IMG/VR virus record: IMGVR_UViG_3300042353_000676 | Span: 1-42,578 of that record | DNA: 42,578 nt | Origin: a virus | Reading direction: 5' to 3' (one strand) | Shown: positions 788-9,042 of the stretch, one piece after another | How positions within the stretch are numbered: the stretch's first letter is position 1 | Layout of the letters: the number at the start of each line of letters is the position of its first letter | Notes under the pieces: model-generated | Seen by the model: only the letters and a program-made list of their open reading frames with translations | Database searches by the model: none | Told to the model about the DNA's origin: nothing | Program-made: the position numbers and the translations under genes

Positions 788-922
788 CTTGCACCACAAA
801 ACACATAAGCTTTTAAAGTAACTGACCCTAAACTGGATCAATACACTAGTGTTTGGAGGCTGCTGCCCAATACAAAGCAAAATCTCAGCACTTGTATTCA
901 TCCAGCAAACAATCAAAAAAAC

Positions 923-951
923 TTGTCAAAGTGTCCACAAACTGTTATAAT
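923..951 (+). promoter_or_regulatory. Sigma70-type promoter
   Basis: TTGTCA (923-928) and TATAAT (946-951) are separated by 17 bp. A 13-bp motif copy lies about 88 bp upstream. Confidence 0.7.
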
Positions 952-1006
952 ATTTATAATTTCACAAAAGTTGAAATTGGTATACAAGGGCAATATAAAA
1001 ATGCAC

Positions 1007-1036
1007 TTGTATATGCGTTATCAAATGTGCTATAAT
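1007..1036 (+). promoter_or_regulatory. Sigma70-type promoter with extended -10
   Basis: TTGTAT (1007-1012) and TATAAT (1031-1036) have an 18-bp spacer ending in TGC, which forms an extended -10. The expected start near 1043 places the long hairpin at the 5' end of the transcript. Confidence 0.7.
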
Positions 1037-1059
1037 TTAGTATAACTTGTAGAGTTAGA

Positions 1060-1183
1060 GACTAGGTTGATTTTAAGAATTGATCTAAACTATCTAAACC
1101 CCGTGATGACGAGCCCTGCCGAGGTAAGTTTAGGGTGGTTTGATACTGTTTAGGGTCAATTCAAGAAAATCGCTAACCTAGTC
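1060..1183 (+). ncRNA. Long imperfect hairpin: structured leader or small RNA candidate
   Basis: The two arms pair over about 39 bp in a stepped helix. 1060-1068 (GACTAGGTT) pairs perfectly with 1175-1183. 1069-1074 pairs with 1166-1171 across a 3-nt bulge, and 1078-1083 pairs with 1156-1161. 1084-1090 pairs with 1148-1154, and 1091-1102 pairs with 1134-1145 with small bulges. The apical part (1103-1133) is GC-richer. Two copies of the GTTTAGGG motif form part of the 3' arm. It has no SD-led frame and lies directly behind a good promoter. It could be a structured 5' leader of the downstream gene, an independent RNA, or a DNA-level structure such as an origin. No known riboswitch or ribozyme class was recognised. 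Confidence 0.6.
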
Positions 1184-1233
1184 TAATGCTTATCGACTCA
1201 AACTATATTCTAAAATAATCACATATATTAAAA

Positions 1234-2016
1234 ATGCTATTTAAAAAACAAGAACTACATTCCATTGACTTTTCTGGAACTGAAGGCATGAATCTCGAAG
1301 CCTGGGAAACTTGGGCTGATACAATGAATCTGTCCCACCTTCACACCTGGTTGCTACCTCAATTGGTAGCATGGTATGGATCGTGGACTCTAGTGTACAA
1401 AGATGATGTACTTGACTGTTTAGGGTCAATTAAAGCAAACTGTGTTGACCAGAAGTCTAAGGCATTTTATATGCTGTCAAGAATCAAGCGAAGTTTTTTA
1501 GTAGCACAACAAACTAAAGCTCCTGAATATGCAACCCTGACCCCACTTATTTTAATGGGCTTAAAAAGAATGCAAGGAGTTGATTACGAGTCTTGGAGAA
1601 GTGCTAGTGGACTGCAATATATCCTAGAACCAAGGCTCTTAGAAGCGGTGATGTTAGATGCGCGGGACCTCGAGATTTGCTCGAGCTTAGGGTCAGAGAG
1701 ATTATTAGAGATTCAAGTTCAAGGTTTAACTACTAAGTCAGGTAAAACAGCAGGCAGCATAAAGCCTGCTAAATCTACTTGGAGTTTAACTGGAATACAG
1801 GACACAGAGATTGGACACTTGCCTAAAATTACACAAACAATTTTAGCACAATGTTGGTTAGCTCATCCTGAGTTACGAACACCTTATATGATTTTAGATC
1901 CACAGAACTGGGATGCAATGCCTCAACCTCTAGTATCAAATAATATTTTTAAAGTAGAACAATTAACCAAAAAACAGGTAACAGAGACGGCTAGTTTAAT
2001 GCCGTGGGATTTATGA
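1234..2016 (+). CDS. Hypothetical phage protein, 260 aa
   Basis: This is a Trp-rich, mainly helical, probably soluble protein with no catalytic motif that I recognise. The C-terminal part (about residues 205-232) has a conserved-looking block with AHPELRTPYMILDPQNWD. The ATG at 1234 has no Shine-Dalgarno sequence; an in-frame ATG at 1288 is also poorly placed, so the start is uncertain. The gene carries two copies of the 13-bp motif in its reading frame (1416-1428 and 1683-1695). Its stop codon overlaps the start of the helix-turn-helix gene as ATGA at 2013-2016, so the two are translationally coupled and may act together, for example as a replication or regulatory pair. That pairing is inference. 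Confidence 0.75.
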   Translation: MLFKKQELHSIDFSGTEGMNLEAWETWADTMNLSHLHTWLLPQLVAWYGSWTLVYKDDVLDCLGSIKANCVDQKSKAFYMLSRIKRSFLVAQQTKAPEYATLTPLILMGLKRMQGVDYESWRSASGLQYILEPRLLEAVMLDARDLEICSSLGSERLLEIQVQGLTTKSGKTAGSIKPAKSTWSLTGIQDTEIGHLPKITQTILAQCWLAHPELRTPYMILDPQNWDAMPQPLVSNNIFKVEQLTKKQVTETASLMPWDL

Positions 2017-2366
2017 AGTATACAAAAGAAATTACAGACAAATTGATCGCAGACTATAGAGCAGGAGTAACTGTTGCTGAGATAGCAACTACTCTAGATG
2101 TACCAGAACGTTCAGTAATCGCTAAATTAAGCTCTCTGGGCGTCTATACCAAGAAAAGCTATGTCAACAAGCGTGGTGAGGTGCCAGTTAAAAAATCGGA
2201 GCACATCGAGCGTATTGCTGAGCTGCTGGACGTGGATGAAGAATTGCTGGAATCGCTAGAGAAGGTAAATAAAACGGTACTTAAGCTAATTGAGAACAAA
2301 TTAGCTGAATCTGACCCTAAATTGCACTATACGCGACAAACTGACCACTTATTTGCAGATGTTTGA
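2013..2366 (+). CDS. Helix-turn-helix DNA-binding protein, paralogue 1 (117 aa)
   Basis: A helix-turn-helix is visible at about residues 19-45, with VTVAEIATTLDVPERSVIAK as its core. It is followed by a basic linker (GEVPVKK) and a C-terminal helical segment with ESLEKVNKTVLK. Three other genes in this window (ending at 3663, 4631 and 8258 on the other strand) encode the same layout with clear residue identity. They share YTxExT at the N-terminus, RSVxAKLS, GxxPVKK and ESLxKxN. The start is the ATG at 2013 overlapping the preceding stop, not the GTG at 2004. The last codon and the terminator region carry two copies of the 13-bp motif (2312 and 2364). The likely role is a small regulator binding local repeats; the DNA target is not known. 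Confidence 0.75.
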   Translation: MKYTKEITDKLIADYRAGVTVAEIATTLDVPERSVIAKLSSLGVYTKKSYVNKRGEVPVKKSEHIERIAELLDVDEELLESLEKVNKTVLKLIENKLAESDPKLHYTRQTDHLFADV

Positions 2367-2400
2367 CCCTAAACCGAGCAAATCAGCCTTAAAAACACAA

Positions 2401-2434
2401 AAGCCCACTTAATTTGCGTTAAGTGGGCTTTTTT
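2401..2434 (+). terminator. Intrinsic terminator
   Basis: A perfect 12-bp stem (AAGCCCACTTAA pairing 2401-2412 with 2419-2430) has a 6-nt loop and is followed by a T-run to 2434. It ends the 260-aa/helix-turn-helix operon. The A-rich 5' flank would let it work leftward too. Confidence 0.9.
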
Positions 2435-2507
2435 GCGTCTGTTACCGTGGTGGTTCAAACTGTGTGCGATTGTTACGGTTTAGGGTCAGACACCGTTGTT
2501 TTCACAC

Positions 2508-2537
2508 TTGACAAGATTTAGCACTATGTGGTATAAT
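2508..2537 (+). promoter_or_regulatory. Consensus sigma70 promoter, class with downstream GGCGC
   Basis: TTGACA (2508-2513) and TATAAT (2532-2537) are separated by 18 bp and followed by GGCGCC. Similar CTTGACAAG...TATAATGGGCGC wording recurs at 4255-4290. A 13-bp motif copy lies 19 bp upstream (2476-2488). No gene follows; the first thing downstream is a hairpin. Confidence 0.8.
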
Positions 2538-2556
2538 GGCGCCGAGCACACAAAAC

Positions 2557-2589
2557 AAAACCCCGTCACCATTACGTGTACGGGGTTTT
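2557..2589 (+). terminator. Hairpin directly behind the 2508 promoter (terminator-like)
   Basis: AAAACCCCGT (2557-2566) pairs perfectly with ACGGGGTTTT (2580-2589) around a 13-nt loop, starting only about 13 bases after the expected transcription start. The 3' T-run is part of the stem, so termination may be partial. A second palindrome, GCTGTTGCAACAGC (2600-2613), is followed after 6 bases by a run of six T. Confidence 0.6.
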
Positions 2590-3071
2590 GAAAGCATTTG
2601 CTGTTGCAACAGCGTCGTCTTTTTTAACTCACTCAGGGTTTTTAAGCCACCACAGCTACCTGACCCTAAACTGCAGCATGTCGCTACGTATCCTTTGGTG
2701 GTTAATCCATCGCGATGTTGGTTAGGGGAGAATGCACGTTTCAGTCCTGTCAACCTCTACTCAACGCGAAGCGTCTCGATTGGGTATGCAGGATATCCGT
2801 GACTAACTGTGTTAAGTTTAATGACGTATAACAGGTCAACCGAATAATATTTTACGACTCTACGGTTTAGGGTCGATGTACGTCTTTAAGATAGTGCTAA
2901 GCGCCCTTGCATTAAATCGCTAGTAAGATTCAAACTTACATTACCTGAACGAACAGGCTCTTAGTTAGAAGATAGCTGTATTTGTTACAGGAGTTCTTTC
3001 TCCCCGAGTTCCTACCTTGTTGTTACTCTGAACCAGTTTCTAGTTTTTAACTAACTCATAGAGGAGTCGGC

Positions 3072-3140
3072 ATGGGATATAGGTGTAACATGCTACCTAG
3101 TACTACTACTTTCCTAACACCAGCAAGTGGTACACGCTAG
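3072..3140 (+). CDS. Possible 22-aa peptide
   Basis: The frame starts MGYRCNMLPS behind an excellent ribosome site (AGAGGAG with 5 bases to the ATG). It is the only frame with such a site in the long non-coding stretch. No promoter is obvious close upstream and the peptide is too short for any family call, so it may be chance. Confidence 0.25.
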   Translation: MGYRCNMLPSTTTFLTPASGTR

Positions 3141-3238
3141 GGGTTTCGTCCTGACCCTAAGGTACAGCAGGTTATGAGGTTTGAAGTCTCAATGACCTGC
3201 TGTGAAGTCTTGGGTTTCGCCTAAATTTCATAGGCTCA

Positions 3239-3662: not shown

Positions 3663-3968
3663 TCAACGCAGGTTTTGGAGGATTGCTTCCAGAACTTCGT
3701 GATTGGCTTTCTCCAAAGAGTCGAAAGTCTCTGGAGCAACACCAACTCGGTTGGCAATTGCGTCAACAAGTTCAGACTTCTTGACACGAGCCACGCCAGA
3801 GCTCTTGCTCTTGGCTTGGTAAACTCCCTCACGAGAGAGTTTGGCAACCACTGAGCGAGTGGTCTTGCCGAACATTGTTGCCAATGTTTCGACAGTAGCG
3901 CCAGCTTTGTAGTTGGCAACGAGCTGAGCTGTTTGCTCAGGTGTGTAATTCACAGTTTTGTCAGTCAT
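3663..3968 (-). CDS. Helix-turn-helix DNA-binding protein, paralogue 2 (101 aa)
   Basis: The protein starts MTDKTVNYTPEQTAQ. The helix-turn-helix lies at about residues 22-48 (ATVETLATMFGKTTRSVVAK). A Ser/Lys linker follows, then a C-terminal helix with DSLEKANHEVLE. It is collinear with the products at 2013, 4631 and 8258, but its linker lacks the GExPVKK form (here GVARVKK) and its codons are GC-richer than those of paralogue 3, so the copies are not recent duplicates. The second of two adjacent ATGs is preferred: AAGGA lies 6 bases upstream, and the N-terminus then matches paralogue 4. A promoter (4012-4040) lies inside the end of the gene upstream. Confidence 0.75.
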   Translation of the reverse strand: MTDKTVNYTPEQTAQLVANYKAGATVETLATMFGKTTRSVVAKLSREGVYQAKSKSSGVARVKKSELVDAIANRVGVAPETFDSLEKANHEVLEAILQNLR

Positions 3969-4011
3969 CATATGTCCTTTATGTTTTGGTTTCTGCGCTG
4001 TTTAAAGATTA

Positions 4012-4255: not shown

Positions 4256-4285
4256 TTGACAAGACAAGCTTTACCACTATATAAT
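4256..4285 (+). promoter_or_regulatory. Consensus rightward promoter with GGGCGC downstream
   Basis: TTGACA (4256-4261), an 18-bp spacer and TATAAT (4280-4285) are followed by GGGCGCA. A decayed copy of the same module lies just downstream (CTTGACAAGGATTACCACT then GGCGCA, 4315-4339) and lacks the -10. No rightward gene follows; transcription would run into the palindromes at 4355-4437. Confidence 0.75.
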
Positions 4286-4547: not shown

Positions 4548-4630
4548 GGAAAATAGATTACTGGGATTTTAACCCAGATTCCCGATAATAAAAATCGGAT
4601 ATTAAATATTATATGATAATCTATTATTCA

Positions 4631-4951
4631 TTATATTGGCTTTGAATTAGCCAATGCTTCGAAAATCACTTTTAAAGCATTTTTATTTGCTTTAGTTAAT
4701 GATTCAATATCATTTTCGGGTAATCGCAAAATCGCCCCAATAGCATCCGCATGAGTATCTTTTTTAACTGGAGTTTCTCCAGTTTTAGATTTATATTCTT
4801 TTGCAATATAAACCTTTTCACGAGATAATTTAGCGACAATACTCCGCACAGTTTTACCAACATTATCTGCGATAATGTCAACAGATAATCCGCTCTGATA
4901 ATCAGAGATAATCTGAGCTGTTTGCTCAGGGGTGTAGTTAATCGTTTTCAT
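4631..4951 (-). CDS. Helix-turn-helix DNA-binding protein, paralogue 3 (106 aa)
   Basis: The protein starts MKTINYTPEQTAQI. The helix-turn-helix at residues 20-46 contains LSVDIIADNVGKTVRSIVAK. The linker GETPVKKDTHAD and the C-terminal helix ESLTKANKNALK are nearly identical to paralogue 4. The ATG at 4951 has AAAGG 7 bases upstream; the upstream in-frame ATG lacks this. The gene is far more AT-rich than paralogues 2 and 4, with repeated GATTATC words, so protein identity is kept while codons differ. That fits long separation or acquisition from another phage. It lies 10 bp downstream of the 3-TM protein gene (4962) and is probably co-transcribed with it. Confidence 0.75.
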   Translation of the reverse strand: MKTINYTPEQTAQIISDYQSGLSVDIIADNVGKTVRSIVAKLSREKVYIAKEYKSKTGETPVKKDTHADAIGAILRLPENDIESLTKANKNALKVIFEALANSKPI

Positions 4952-5575: not shown

Positions 5576-5604
5576 ATTATACACAGTTCACCAACCCTTG
5601 CAAA
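5576..5604 (-). promoter_or_regulatory. Leftward promoter predicted to give a leaderless mRNA
   Basis: Read leftward: TTTGCA (5599-5604), a 17-bp spacer and TATAAT (5576-5581). The ATG of the SprT-like gene begins at the seventh base after the -10, the usual start point, and no Shine-Dalgarno sequence is possible. Confidence 0.65.
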
Positions 5605-5645: not shown

Positions 5646-5692
5646 ATAGGTGTTTACCCCTATTGACGGGGGCTCAAATTATATGCTATAAT
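5646..5692 (+). promoter_or_regulatory. Intergenic cassette 1: palindrome plus rightward promoter
   Basis: ATAGGTGTTTACCCCTAT (5646-5663, one mismatched pair) runs into the -35 TTGACG (5663-5668). An 18-bp spacer and TATAAT (5687-5692) follow, then TTGGCGC. The same module recurs at 6792 and 7818, and its palindrome alone at 8918. The palindrome touching the -35 is a likely repressor or activator site. Confidence 0.75.
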
Positions 5693-5699
5693 TTGGCGC

Positions 5700-6791: not shown

Positions 6792-6838
6792 AATAAGGGT
6801 TTACCCTATTGACACGGGCTCAATTATACTAGTATAAT
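6792..6838 (+). promoter_or_regulatory. Intergenic cassette 2: palindrome plus rightward promoter
   Basis: An imperfect palindrome, AATAAGGGTTTACCCTATT (6792-6810), overlaps the -35 TTGACA (6809-6814). An 18-bp spacer and TATAAT (6833-6838) follow, then TGGCGC. The layout is the same, to the base, as cassettes 1 and 3. Confidence 0.75.
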
Positions 6839-6844
6839 TGGCGC

Positions 6845-7770: not shown

Positions 7771-7776
7771 ATTATA
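7771..7776 (-). promoter_or_regulatory. Leftward -10 element, leaderless geometry
   Basis: TATAAT read leftward ends 7 bases before the start codon at 7763. The -35 is weak. Confidence 0.5.
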
Positions 7777-7817
7777 CAGCAAAAACCGCCCAAAAACCAT
7801 GTGTGTGAAAATACAAC

Positions 7818-7864
7818 ATAGGTGTTTACACCTATTGACACGGGCTCCAAAATTATGGTATAAT
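7818..7864 (+). promoter_or_regulatory. Intergenic cassette 3: perfect palindrome plus consensus promoter
   Basis: ATAGGTGTTTACACCTAT (7818-7835) is a perfect 8+8 palindrome with TT in the centre. TTGACA (7835-7840), an 18-bp spacer and TATAAT (7859-7864) follow, then TTTTGGCGC. Behind it stand two hairpins of different families, at 7877 and 7911. Confidence 0.8.
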
Positions 7865-7876
7865 TTTGGCGCAAAC

Positions 7877-8257: not shown

Positions 8258-8581
8258 TCAGGTCTTTTCAGCCTTGATAAAATCAGCAATTTTCATCAAA
8301 GCAATTTTATTTGCTTTAGTGAGGGATTCTGTATCAGCTTCTGTCAAACCCAATGCCTCACCGATAAAATCAGCGTGTACATCTTTTTTAATCGGTGTCT
8401 CGCCTGATTTCGTTTTGTATGCCTTAGCAACATAAACCTTTTCACGGCTCAATTTTGCAACAACAGAACGAACAGTTTTGCCGAATGTCTCGGCAATGGT
8501 TTCAACGCTAGAACCGCCTTGGTAGTCAGCAATCATTCGAGCAGTTTGCTCGGGCGTGTAGTTCACAGTTTTCGTAGTCAT
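8258..8581 (-). CDS. Helix-turn-helix DNA-binding protein, paralogue 4 (107 aa)
   Basis: The protein starts MTTKTVNYTPEQTAR. The helix-turn-helix at residues 22-48 contains SSVETIAETFGKTVRSVVAK. The linker GETPIKKDVHAD and the C-terminal helix ESLTKANKIALM follow. It is closest to paralogue 3 in protein sequence but GC-richer in codons. AAGGAG lies 10 bases before the ATG, and a promoter (TTGCGT, 17 bp, TATAAT) lies at 8604-8632. The four paralogues sit at four separate points of the early region, which suggests regulators of separate units or a shared set of sites. Confidence 0.75.
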   Translation of the reverse strand: MTTKTVNYTPEQTARMIADYQGGSSVETIAETFGKTVRSVVAKLSREKVYVAKAYKTKSGETPIKKDVHADFIGEALGLTEADTESLTKANKIALMKIADFIKAEKT

Positions 8582-8870: not shown

Positions 8871-8900
8871 ATTATACACGAATAACCTAGAATAAATCAA
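8871..8900 (-). promoter_or_regulatory. Leftward sigma70-type promoter for the 47-aa gene
   Basis: Read leftward: TTGATT (8895-8900), an 18-bp spacer and TATAAT (8871-8876). Confidence 0.6.
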
Positions 8901-8917: not shown

Positions 8918-8935
8918 ATAGGTGTTTATCCCTAT
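8918..8935. repeat. Fourth copy of the cassette palindrome, without a clear promoter
   Basis: ATAGGTGTTTATCCCTAT, with the preceding AATACAAC shared with cassettes 1 and 3. The following TAGACT is a degraded -35 and no -10 follows at the right distance. Several more short inverted repeats (CCCTA/TAGGG at 8930-8944 and the region to 8975) follow, between the leftward block and the late promoter. Confidence 0.6.
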
Positions 8936-9042
8936 AGACTAGGGGCGGTTATTAGACTATGGTTGACCTATAGCTACGGGACCCCCCGACACGGCCTATT
9001 TCAGGAAAATTTCCAAACACCCTAAGGTGCCAAAATCCACAC

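Follow-up and report, generated by a model that had tools for sequence, protein, structure and literature searches.

RESULTS

A palindromic site between small phage operons

The window, the whole stretch of DNA that was analyzed, is a 42.6-kb viral record. Its terminase finds its best match among T5-like phages (TerL, ~49% identity), and tape-measure, tail, and capsid genes come after the terminase on the plus strand. A block of short minus-strand operons occupies 3.6 to 9.0 kb and encodes helix-turn-helix (HTH) proteins, a SprT-like protein, a PQ-loop protein, a polynucleotide-kinase-like protein, and an open reading frame (ORF) that is named DnaQ-like from a DTETT motif and had no Pfam match. 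No lysogeny genes were seen in the window. We found no close isolate relatives: the cassette DNA was unmatched in 50,697 phage records, and tblastn with the HTH proteins gave no match in the 50,697 isolate phage records.

The first-pass annotation of this DNA had described a perfect palindrome at 7818 with near copies at 5646, 6792, and 8918. We confirmed that ATAGGTGTTTACACCTAT occupies 7818 to 7835. Its two 8-base arms are symmetric, and "perfect" applies to them alone, as the two middle bases, TT, break the symmetry. The copies at 5646 to 5663 and 8918 to 8935 are one and two bases off, respectively. The copy at 6792, ATAAGGGTTTACCCTAT (6793 to 6809), is looser and one base shorter, and it was absent from an ungapped search allowing up to 3 mismatches. 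At this threshold there were 5 matches in the window (0.06 expected), and 0 of 100 shuffled sequences reached 5. The palindrome is real and far beyond chance. The overlap reported for its edge also holds: at 5646, 6792, and 7818, the final T doubles as the first T of TTGAC. Site 8918 has TAGAC in place of TTGAC. All four sites sit in gaps between operons, and the one at 8918 shortly precedes gene 9092, the first on the plus strand and, from its position, presumably terS. The original observation was right and, if anything, understated. The sites and the block beside the last of them are as follows.

5647..5662, plus strand: putative operator core TAGGTGTTTACCCCTA (motif search)
6793..6808, plus strand: putative degraded operator ATAAGGGTTTACCCTA, one base short (read from the sequence)
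7819..7834, plus strand: putative operator core TAGGTGTTTACACCTA, symmetric variant (motif and family searches)
8919..8934, plus strand: putative operator core TAGGTGTTTATCCCTA, upstream of terS; right flank TAGAC (motif search)
8942..8963, plus strand: late-promoter-like conserved block GGGGCGGTTATTAGACTATGGT, after the terS operator (conservation)

A further conserved block, CCCCCCGACACGGCCTATTTCAGGAAAATTTCC...CCCTAAGGTGCC, at 8980 to 9035, separates the terS operator from the first late gene; it is possibly a packaging site or a leader.

Two-fold symmetry of the site in relatives

We scanned IMG/VR with a degenerate pattern, which yielded 86 loci. A set of 80 contigs was fetched independently via the HTH protein, and 80 more distant contigs were added later. 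To avoid circularity, the HTH-fetched loci were searched by their flanks only (ATACAACA, then 10 to 22 bases, then TTGAC). The distance between ATACAACA and TTGAC was exactly 16 bp in 115 of 118 distinct contexts from HTH-bearing viral contigs. Nearly all of these 16-bp cores are variants of TAGGKRNW·WNYMCCTA, and the 7818 copy is one such variant. The outer TAGG/CCTA is almost invariant, and each half alike has K (T or G) at position 5 and R (G or A) at position 6. Inverted half-sites at a fixed spacing, with one base preference shared by both halves, are the pattern of a homodimer operator. In records of 54 to 128 kb, the sites are limited to a single block of ~5 to 8 kb beside the terminase and HTH genes. 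We conclude that the site belongs to a large unrecognized family in widespread uncultured T5-like freshwater phages. Some pattern matches (for example, in loci L004, L018, L022, L044, and L050) fall outside this context and look coincidental.

The two halves vary mostly independently, with no covariation of the inner bases. At 5:12 the most frequent combination, T/C, is a mismatch, and at position 5 the halves show a weak tendency to match (P, ~0.01). The first-pass annotation had named uncompensated substitutions that break the symmetry in relatives as a result that would refute its reading. Uncompensated asymmetry proved common, with positions 5:12 and 6:11 each non-complementary in ~50% of sites, yet this fits a dimer that reads a degenerate half-site. 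Because the halves vary independently within one degenerate half-site, the site is best read as an operator contacted by two like subunits and not as a hairpin.

This bears on whether the dyad acts in RNA. The dyad, followed by TGTTGTATTTTT, might end leftward transcripts arriving from the next cassette, as the leftward strand folds into ATAGGTG-UAAA-CACCUAU before a T-rich tract and was flagged as terminator-like (7835 to 7818). Related dyads in L212 to L222 also occupy hairpin positions. However, 57 of 117 sites lack complementary bases at 5:12, half have G-T at 6:11, and the GAAAATA connector provides no T tract on the leftward strand. A terminator also leaves the free orientation of the core and the phasing of the -10 boxes (both described below) without a role. 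We consider a terminator very improbable, and we rejected an RNA-hairpin reading of the dyad, since the stem pairs are not kept by compensatory changes.

In L212 to L222, a more distant phage group, the similar dyad type is TAAGGGTTTACCCTTA, beside GGCGCC, at what is elsewhere the stem-loop position; in the same group, TAGGGGGAAACCCCTA comes after the HTH stop codon. In L200, L205, and L211, TTGACCCTAA overlaps the -35 of a TTGACC-17-TATAAT promoter, which in L200 and L205 heads a similar short gene.

The full site together with TTGACA had one match among 84,980 cellular (bacterial and archaeal) genomes, and the sites are phage-only. A host regulator exploited by the phage would suit the host σ70 type of the promoters, but motif plus TTGACA is essentially absent from these cellular genomes. 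On this search for the site with its -35, we reject a host operator; binding by a host regulator seems extremely unlikely.

Free orientation of the core

The center of the core (TTT or AAA) gives it a direction. At fixed flanks, 55 cores point one way and 45 the other. L125 and L023 differ at 7 of 131 flank positions, and their cores differ at 5 positions as they stand and at 1 once one core is inverted. Over all pairs of opposite orientation, the mean number of core differences was 4.74 as is versus 1.87 inverted. The share of opposite-orientation pairs climbs with divergence, from 11 to 15% at low divergence to ~47%, where it saturates. On the tree of the adjacent HTH gene, orientation changed 12 times (shuffled-label mean, 13.8; range, 9 to 18), giving no phylogenetic signal of orientation on that tree. 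We read this tolerance of orientation change, indirectly, as suggesting that the site works alike both ways. An orientation-free core lets functional two-fold symmetry be inferred from metagenomes alone, and it offers a natural readout of the inversion rate of short palindromes.

Both core orientations, the 8-2-8 layout, and the interchangeable flanks also recall the crossover site of a serine recombinase, with a central TT, that would shuffle or invert cassettes. However, in 11 records of up to 128 kb, some of them incomplete, a domain search that recovered its positive controls detected neither a resolvase (PF00239) nor a tyrosine recombinase (PF00589). Moreover, the flip is limited to the 16-bp core and does not extend to the DNA between sites, which fits the spacer inversion known to arise when short inverted repeats prompt template switching (PMC8604942). 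We rejected a serine or tyrosine recombinase site for want of an enzyme in the 11 records, and site-specific cassette exchange has next to no credibility in our view.

Helical phasing of divergent promoters

The site is positioned between divergent σ70-type promoters. The promoters and one connector in the window are listed below.

2508..2537, plus strand: GGCGC-type promoter without operator (promoter scan)
4256..4285, plus strand: GGCGC-type promoter without operator (promoter scan)
5663..5692, plus strand: promoter TTGACG-18-TATAAT, then GGCGC (promoter scan)
6809..6838, plus strand: promoter TTGACA-18-TATAAT, then GGCGC (promoter scan)
7835..7864, plus strand: promoter TTGACA-18-TATAAT, then GGCGC (promoter scan)
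5576..5604, minus strand: gene-side promoter TTTGCA-17-TATAAT; -10 starts 65 nt from operator; heads the SprT-like/HTH 4631 operon
7771..7800, minus strand: gene-side divergent promoter ATGGTT-18-TATAAT; -10 starts 42 nt from operator
7801..7818, minus strand: connector TGTTGTATTTTCACACAC, operator to gene-side -35
8871..8900, minus strand: gene-side promoter TTGATT-18-TATAAT; -10 starts 42 nt from operator; heads the HTH 8258-8581 operon

The plus-strand promoters at 5663, 6809, and 7835 are near-perfect, TTGAC[AG]-18-TATAAT. Three kinds of connector flank the core: the abutting -35 TTGAC; TGTTGTATTTTTGCACAC, beyond which gene promoters lie; and GAAAATAATT. A dyad almost never has the same kind twice, and connectors and hairpins are interchangeable among sites. 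In L032, L033, and L053 (also L055), tandem TGGCACGATTCTTGC boxes lie beside the dyad, after the connector and ~10 to 60 nt; they look like sigma-54 (-24/-12) promoters.

Among dissimilar promoters, the -10 offsets from the site were 23, 32 to 33, 42 to 43, and 54 to 56 bp, in steps of ~10.5 bp; a few gene families had offsets of 59 to 61 and 65 to 66 bp. For 22 dissimilar promoter groups (28 to 70 bp), partly non-independent because they share connectors, the periodicity vector was 0.82 near 10.5 to 11 bp, a value that 0 of 3,000 random sets reached. Helical phasing to the -10 is a hallmark of class I and class II activators, and steps of ~10.5 bp imply a bound protein that always faces RNA polymerase from the same side of the helix. 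The -35 boxes on the gene side are weak, 29 of 66 agreeing with TTGACA at no more than 2 of 6 positions, and the abutting promoters are near-consensus.

We infer that the palindrome is probably the operator of a phage-encoded regulator, homodimeric or symmetrically paired and likely an SREKVY-type HTH protein, that acts as a CI-like dual switch. Each subunit would read the half-site 5′-TAGG-K-R. The bound dimer would lie between the two divergent σ70 promoters and touch RNA polymerase from a fixed helix face, a contact suggested by the -10 boxes of unrelated promoters at ~23, 33, 43, and 55 bp. It may activate the gene-side promoters, often poor in -35, from dyad centers near -53, -63, and -74, and activation by the dyad-bound protein is the sign that we favor there. 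At the abutting promoter, where the dyad center falls at ~-44.5 and overlaps the -35, the regulator would compete with RNA polymerase or replace it. It counts against this explanation that the plus-strand promoters match consensus and occur without the site, and so need no activator. The whole looks like the binding site of a regulator with two identical subunits, by which the phage would switch one small gene block together with the neighboring late-gene promoter.

A pure repressor operator would use the same elements differently. Strong early promoters on both sides would be active as soon as the DNA enters, until the HTH protein builds up and shuts both, which would make the site the early-to-late switch of the phage. 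The near-consensus abutting promoters, whose -35 the site overlaps, are as this predicts, and HTH genes within the gene-side operons fit negative autoregulation. However, a protein that merely blocked the path at -62 to -75 would need no helical phasing to the -10, and the -35 boxes on the gene side are often poor. We regard both pure repression and the early-to-late switch built on it as possible but unlikely.

The dimeric regulator of the first-pass annotation is well supported insofar as it calls for a two-fold site, given the 16-bp length, shared half-site, free orientation, and phasing. That it controls all cassettes together was too strong a claim. The GGCGC promoters at 2508 and 4256 have no site, the 6792 site is degraded, and a site abuts only 78 of 354 distinct GGCGC promoters of relatives.

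An inverted repeat over the -10 box

GGCGC promoters (18-bp spacer) number 4 to 7 per block-spanning record, all on one strand and only in the block. In 230 of the 354 distinct promoters, the -10 lies inside a perfect inverted repeat with arms of at least 7 bp (~3 expected). Where the left arm is present, TATAAT always goes with ATTATA (159:0) and TAAAAT with ATTTTA (54:0). The arm lengths of the inverted repeats agree (rho, 0.99). In the window, three such repeats lie over the -10.

5675..5695, plus strand: inverted repeat CAAATTATA..TATAATTTG over the -10
6821..6840, plus strand: inverted repeat CAATTATACT/AGTATAATTG over the -10
7847..7869, plus strand: inverted repeat CCAAAATTAT..ATAATTTTGG over the -10

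TTGACA-18-TATAAT-GGCGC and the hairpin occur in one unit, and the first 45 nt have a minimum free energy of -11.3 (shuffled, -6.7). Template switching can homogenize repeat arms (PMC8604942, PMC8794818) and could yield the -10 repeats without any function. Their fixed placing over the -10 asks for an explanation.

Jointly, the 16-bp core might be flipped by template switching while the separate -10 hairpin acts as DNA, a combination that we consider improbable. If it is true, a flip would point the stronger half-site at the other divergent promoter and so reset which of the two the regulator favors; the GGCGC -10 hairpin could be, for example, a promoter controlled by supercoiling or single-strandedness.

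HTH paralogues as candidate regulators

The window encodes four HTH paralogues.

2004..2366, plus strand: HTH paralogue, SSLGVY class, embedded in TGACCCTAA repeats
3663..3971, minus strand: HTH paralogue, SREGVY class; promoter without operator
4631..4951, minus strand: HTH paralogue, SREKVY class; second candidate regulator
8258..8581, minus strand: HTH protein, D5-like/GcrA-like, SREKVY class; leading candidate regulator

Of 13 long records, 12 carry the HTH family. Several of its paralogues form a cluster around the sites, and some long records encode a D5-like protein of ~250 amino acids elsewhere. A dyad lies within 700 bp upstream of 69 of 116 SREKVY-class HTH genes, compared to 228 of 919 other ORFs (P, 2e-13), and upstream of 0 of 13 genes of the SSLGVY class at the same distance. 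Each of the two SREKVY genes in the window belongs to an operon whose promoter borders a dyad, at 5646 or 8918. The SREKVY-type paralogues at 4631 to 4951 and 8258 to 8581 are thus plausibly the regulators; since they are encoded behind dyad promoters, they would be autoregulated. The local HTH paralogues had been put forward in the first-pass annotation as the obvious candidates, and by linkage they are still the best ones, present in 12 of the 13 long records and in two operons behind a dyad. Linkage of HTH genes and sites may be mere synteny.

The paralogues match phrog_323 (D5-like) in 16 of 20 members, which places them in the D5-like family, and the family also matches phrog_1725. Among sequence relatives whose structure and function are both known, the nearest is the GcrA DNA-binding domain, a weak match (E, 0.14). 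Against Pfam GcrA, 14 of 20 members matched at E values of 0.1 or lower (best, 0.0014), with no confident match. An AlphaFold model, with good local confidence (pLDDT) and a tentative overall arrangement (pTM), places a three-helix HTH at the N terminus and a helical bundle at the C terminus; a fold search against the PDB returned nothing at an E value of 0.001 or better. Upstream of distant HTH genes, a de novo search for enriched 8-mers brought out no clean motif.

The region from 823 to 3161, around the HTH gene at 2004 to 2366, holds nine TGACCCTAA elements distributed over the two strands, and similar clusters lie at the orthologues of this gene in six other records. TGACCCTAA may be what this paralogue binds; TTAGGGTCA is similar to the half-site TAGGG. 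We rejected a genome-wide role for TGACCCTAA as stoperators, as the scattered copies are mostly in-frame Asp-Pro-Lys codons.

Comparison with known systems

The operators of λ CI combine a consensus and a non-consensus half and serve the divergent PR/PRM pair. The site described here likewise has dimer-type half-sites, one better conserved, between divergent promoters, and it lies near -42/-44 on one side. Unlike in λ, each promoter pair has a single 16-bp site, whose core is free in orientation and whose spacing varies by unit turns. CRP activates from class I and class II centers at -41.5, -61.5, -71.5, and -82.5. The centers here (~-44, -53, -63, and -74 to -85) are also discrete and helically phased, but sequence and protein are unrelated, ~-53 is used, and we infer the sign.

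PeSLs, as described in the work of Arbiol (2010) and Comeau (2014) cited in PMC4503421, are mobile promoter/stem-loop cassettes of T4-like phages. On that description, the cassettes here resemble them as intergenic units between small variable genes that join, in one unit, a stem-loop and a strong promoter of early type by sequence. They differ from the PeSLs so described in belonging to T5-like phages, in adding an operator and a covarying -10 inverted repeat, and in having promoters that face away from the adjacent genes. The stoperators of the mycobacteriophage L5 repressor are asymmetric, monomer-bound, orientation-dependent, and genome-wide (PMC9283540). They share with the site the repetition of a phage regulator site in short intergenic gaps; in contrast, the site is two-fold and confined to one block, with neither an orientation tied to transcription nor a genome-wide spread. 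GcrA is a σ70 cofactor that reads methylated promoter DNA (PMC7403470). The HTH paralogues resemble GcrA and the D5-like regulators of T5 in their matches to phrog_323 and, weakly, to the GcrA DNA-binding domain; unlike GcrA sites, the dyad has no GANTC. We conclude that an orientation-free core, unit-turn spacing, and promoter/hairpin cassettes make this an unusual operator variant.

In T5-like phages, the switching of transcription classes with host σ70 polymerase has been described as unknown (PMC7472727). With a defined operator, a defined arrangement of promoters, and candidate proteins that are short, the system lends itself to plasmid assays that do not require the uncultured phage.

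Two further features lie elsewhere in the window. The segment from 4553 to 4623 on the minus strand is tRNA-like (Rfam RF00005, 37.7 bits; cutoff, 29) and was not reported by ARAGORN. Near the contig end, 40057 to 42400 is a long coding region of collagen-like G-x-y repeats.
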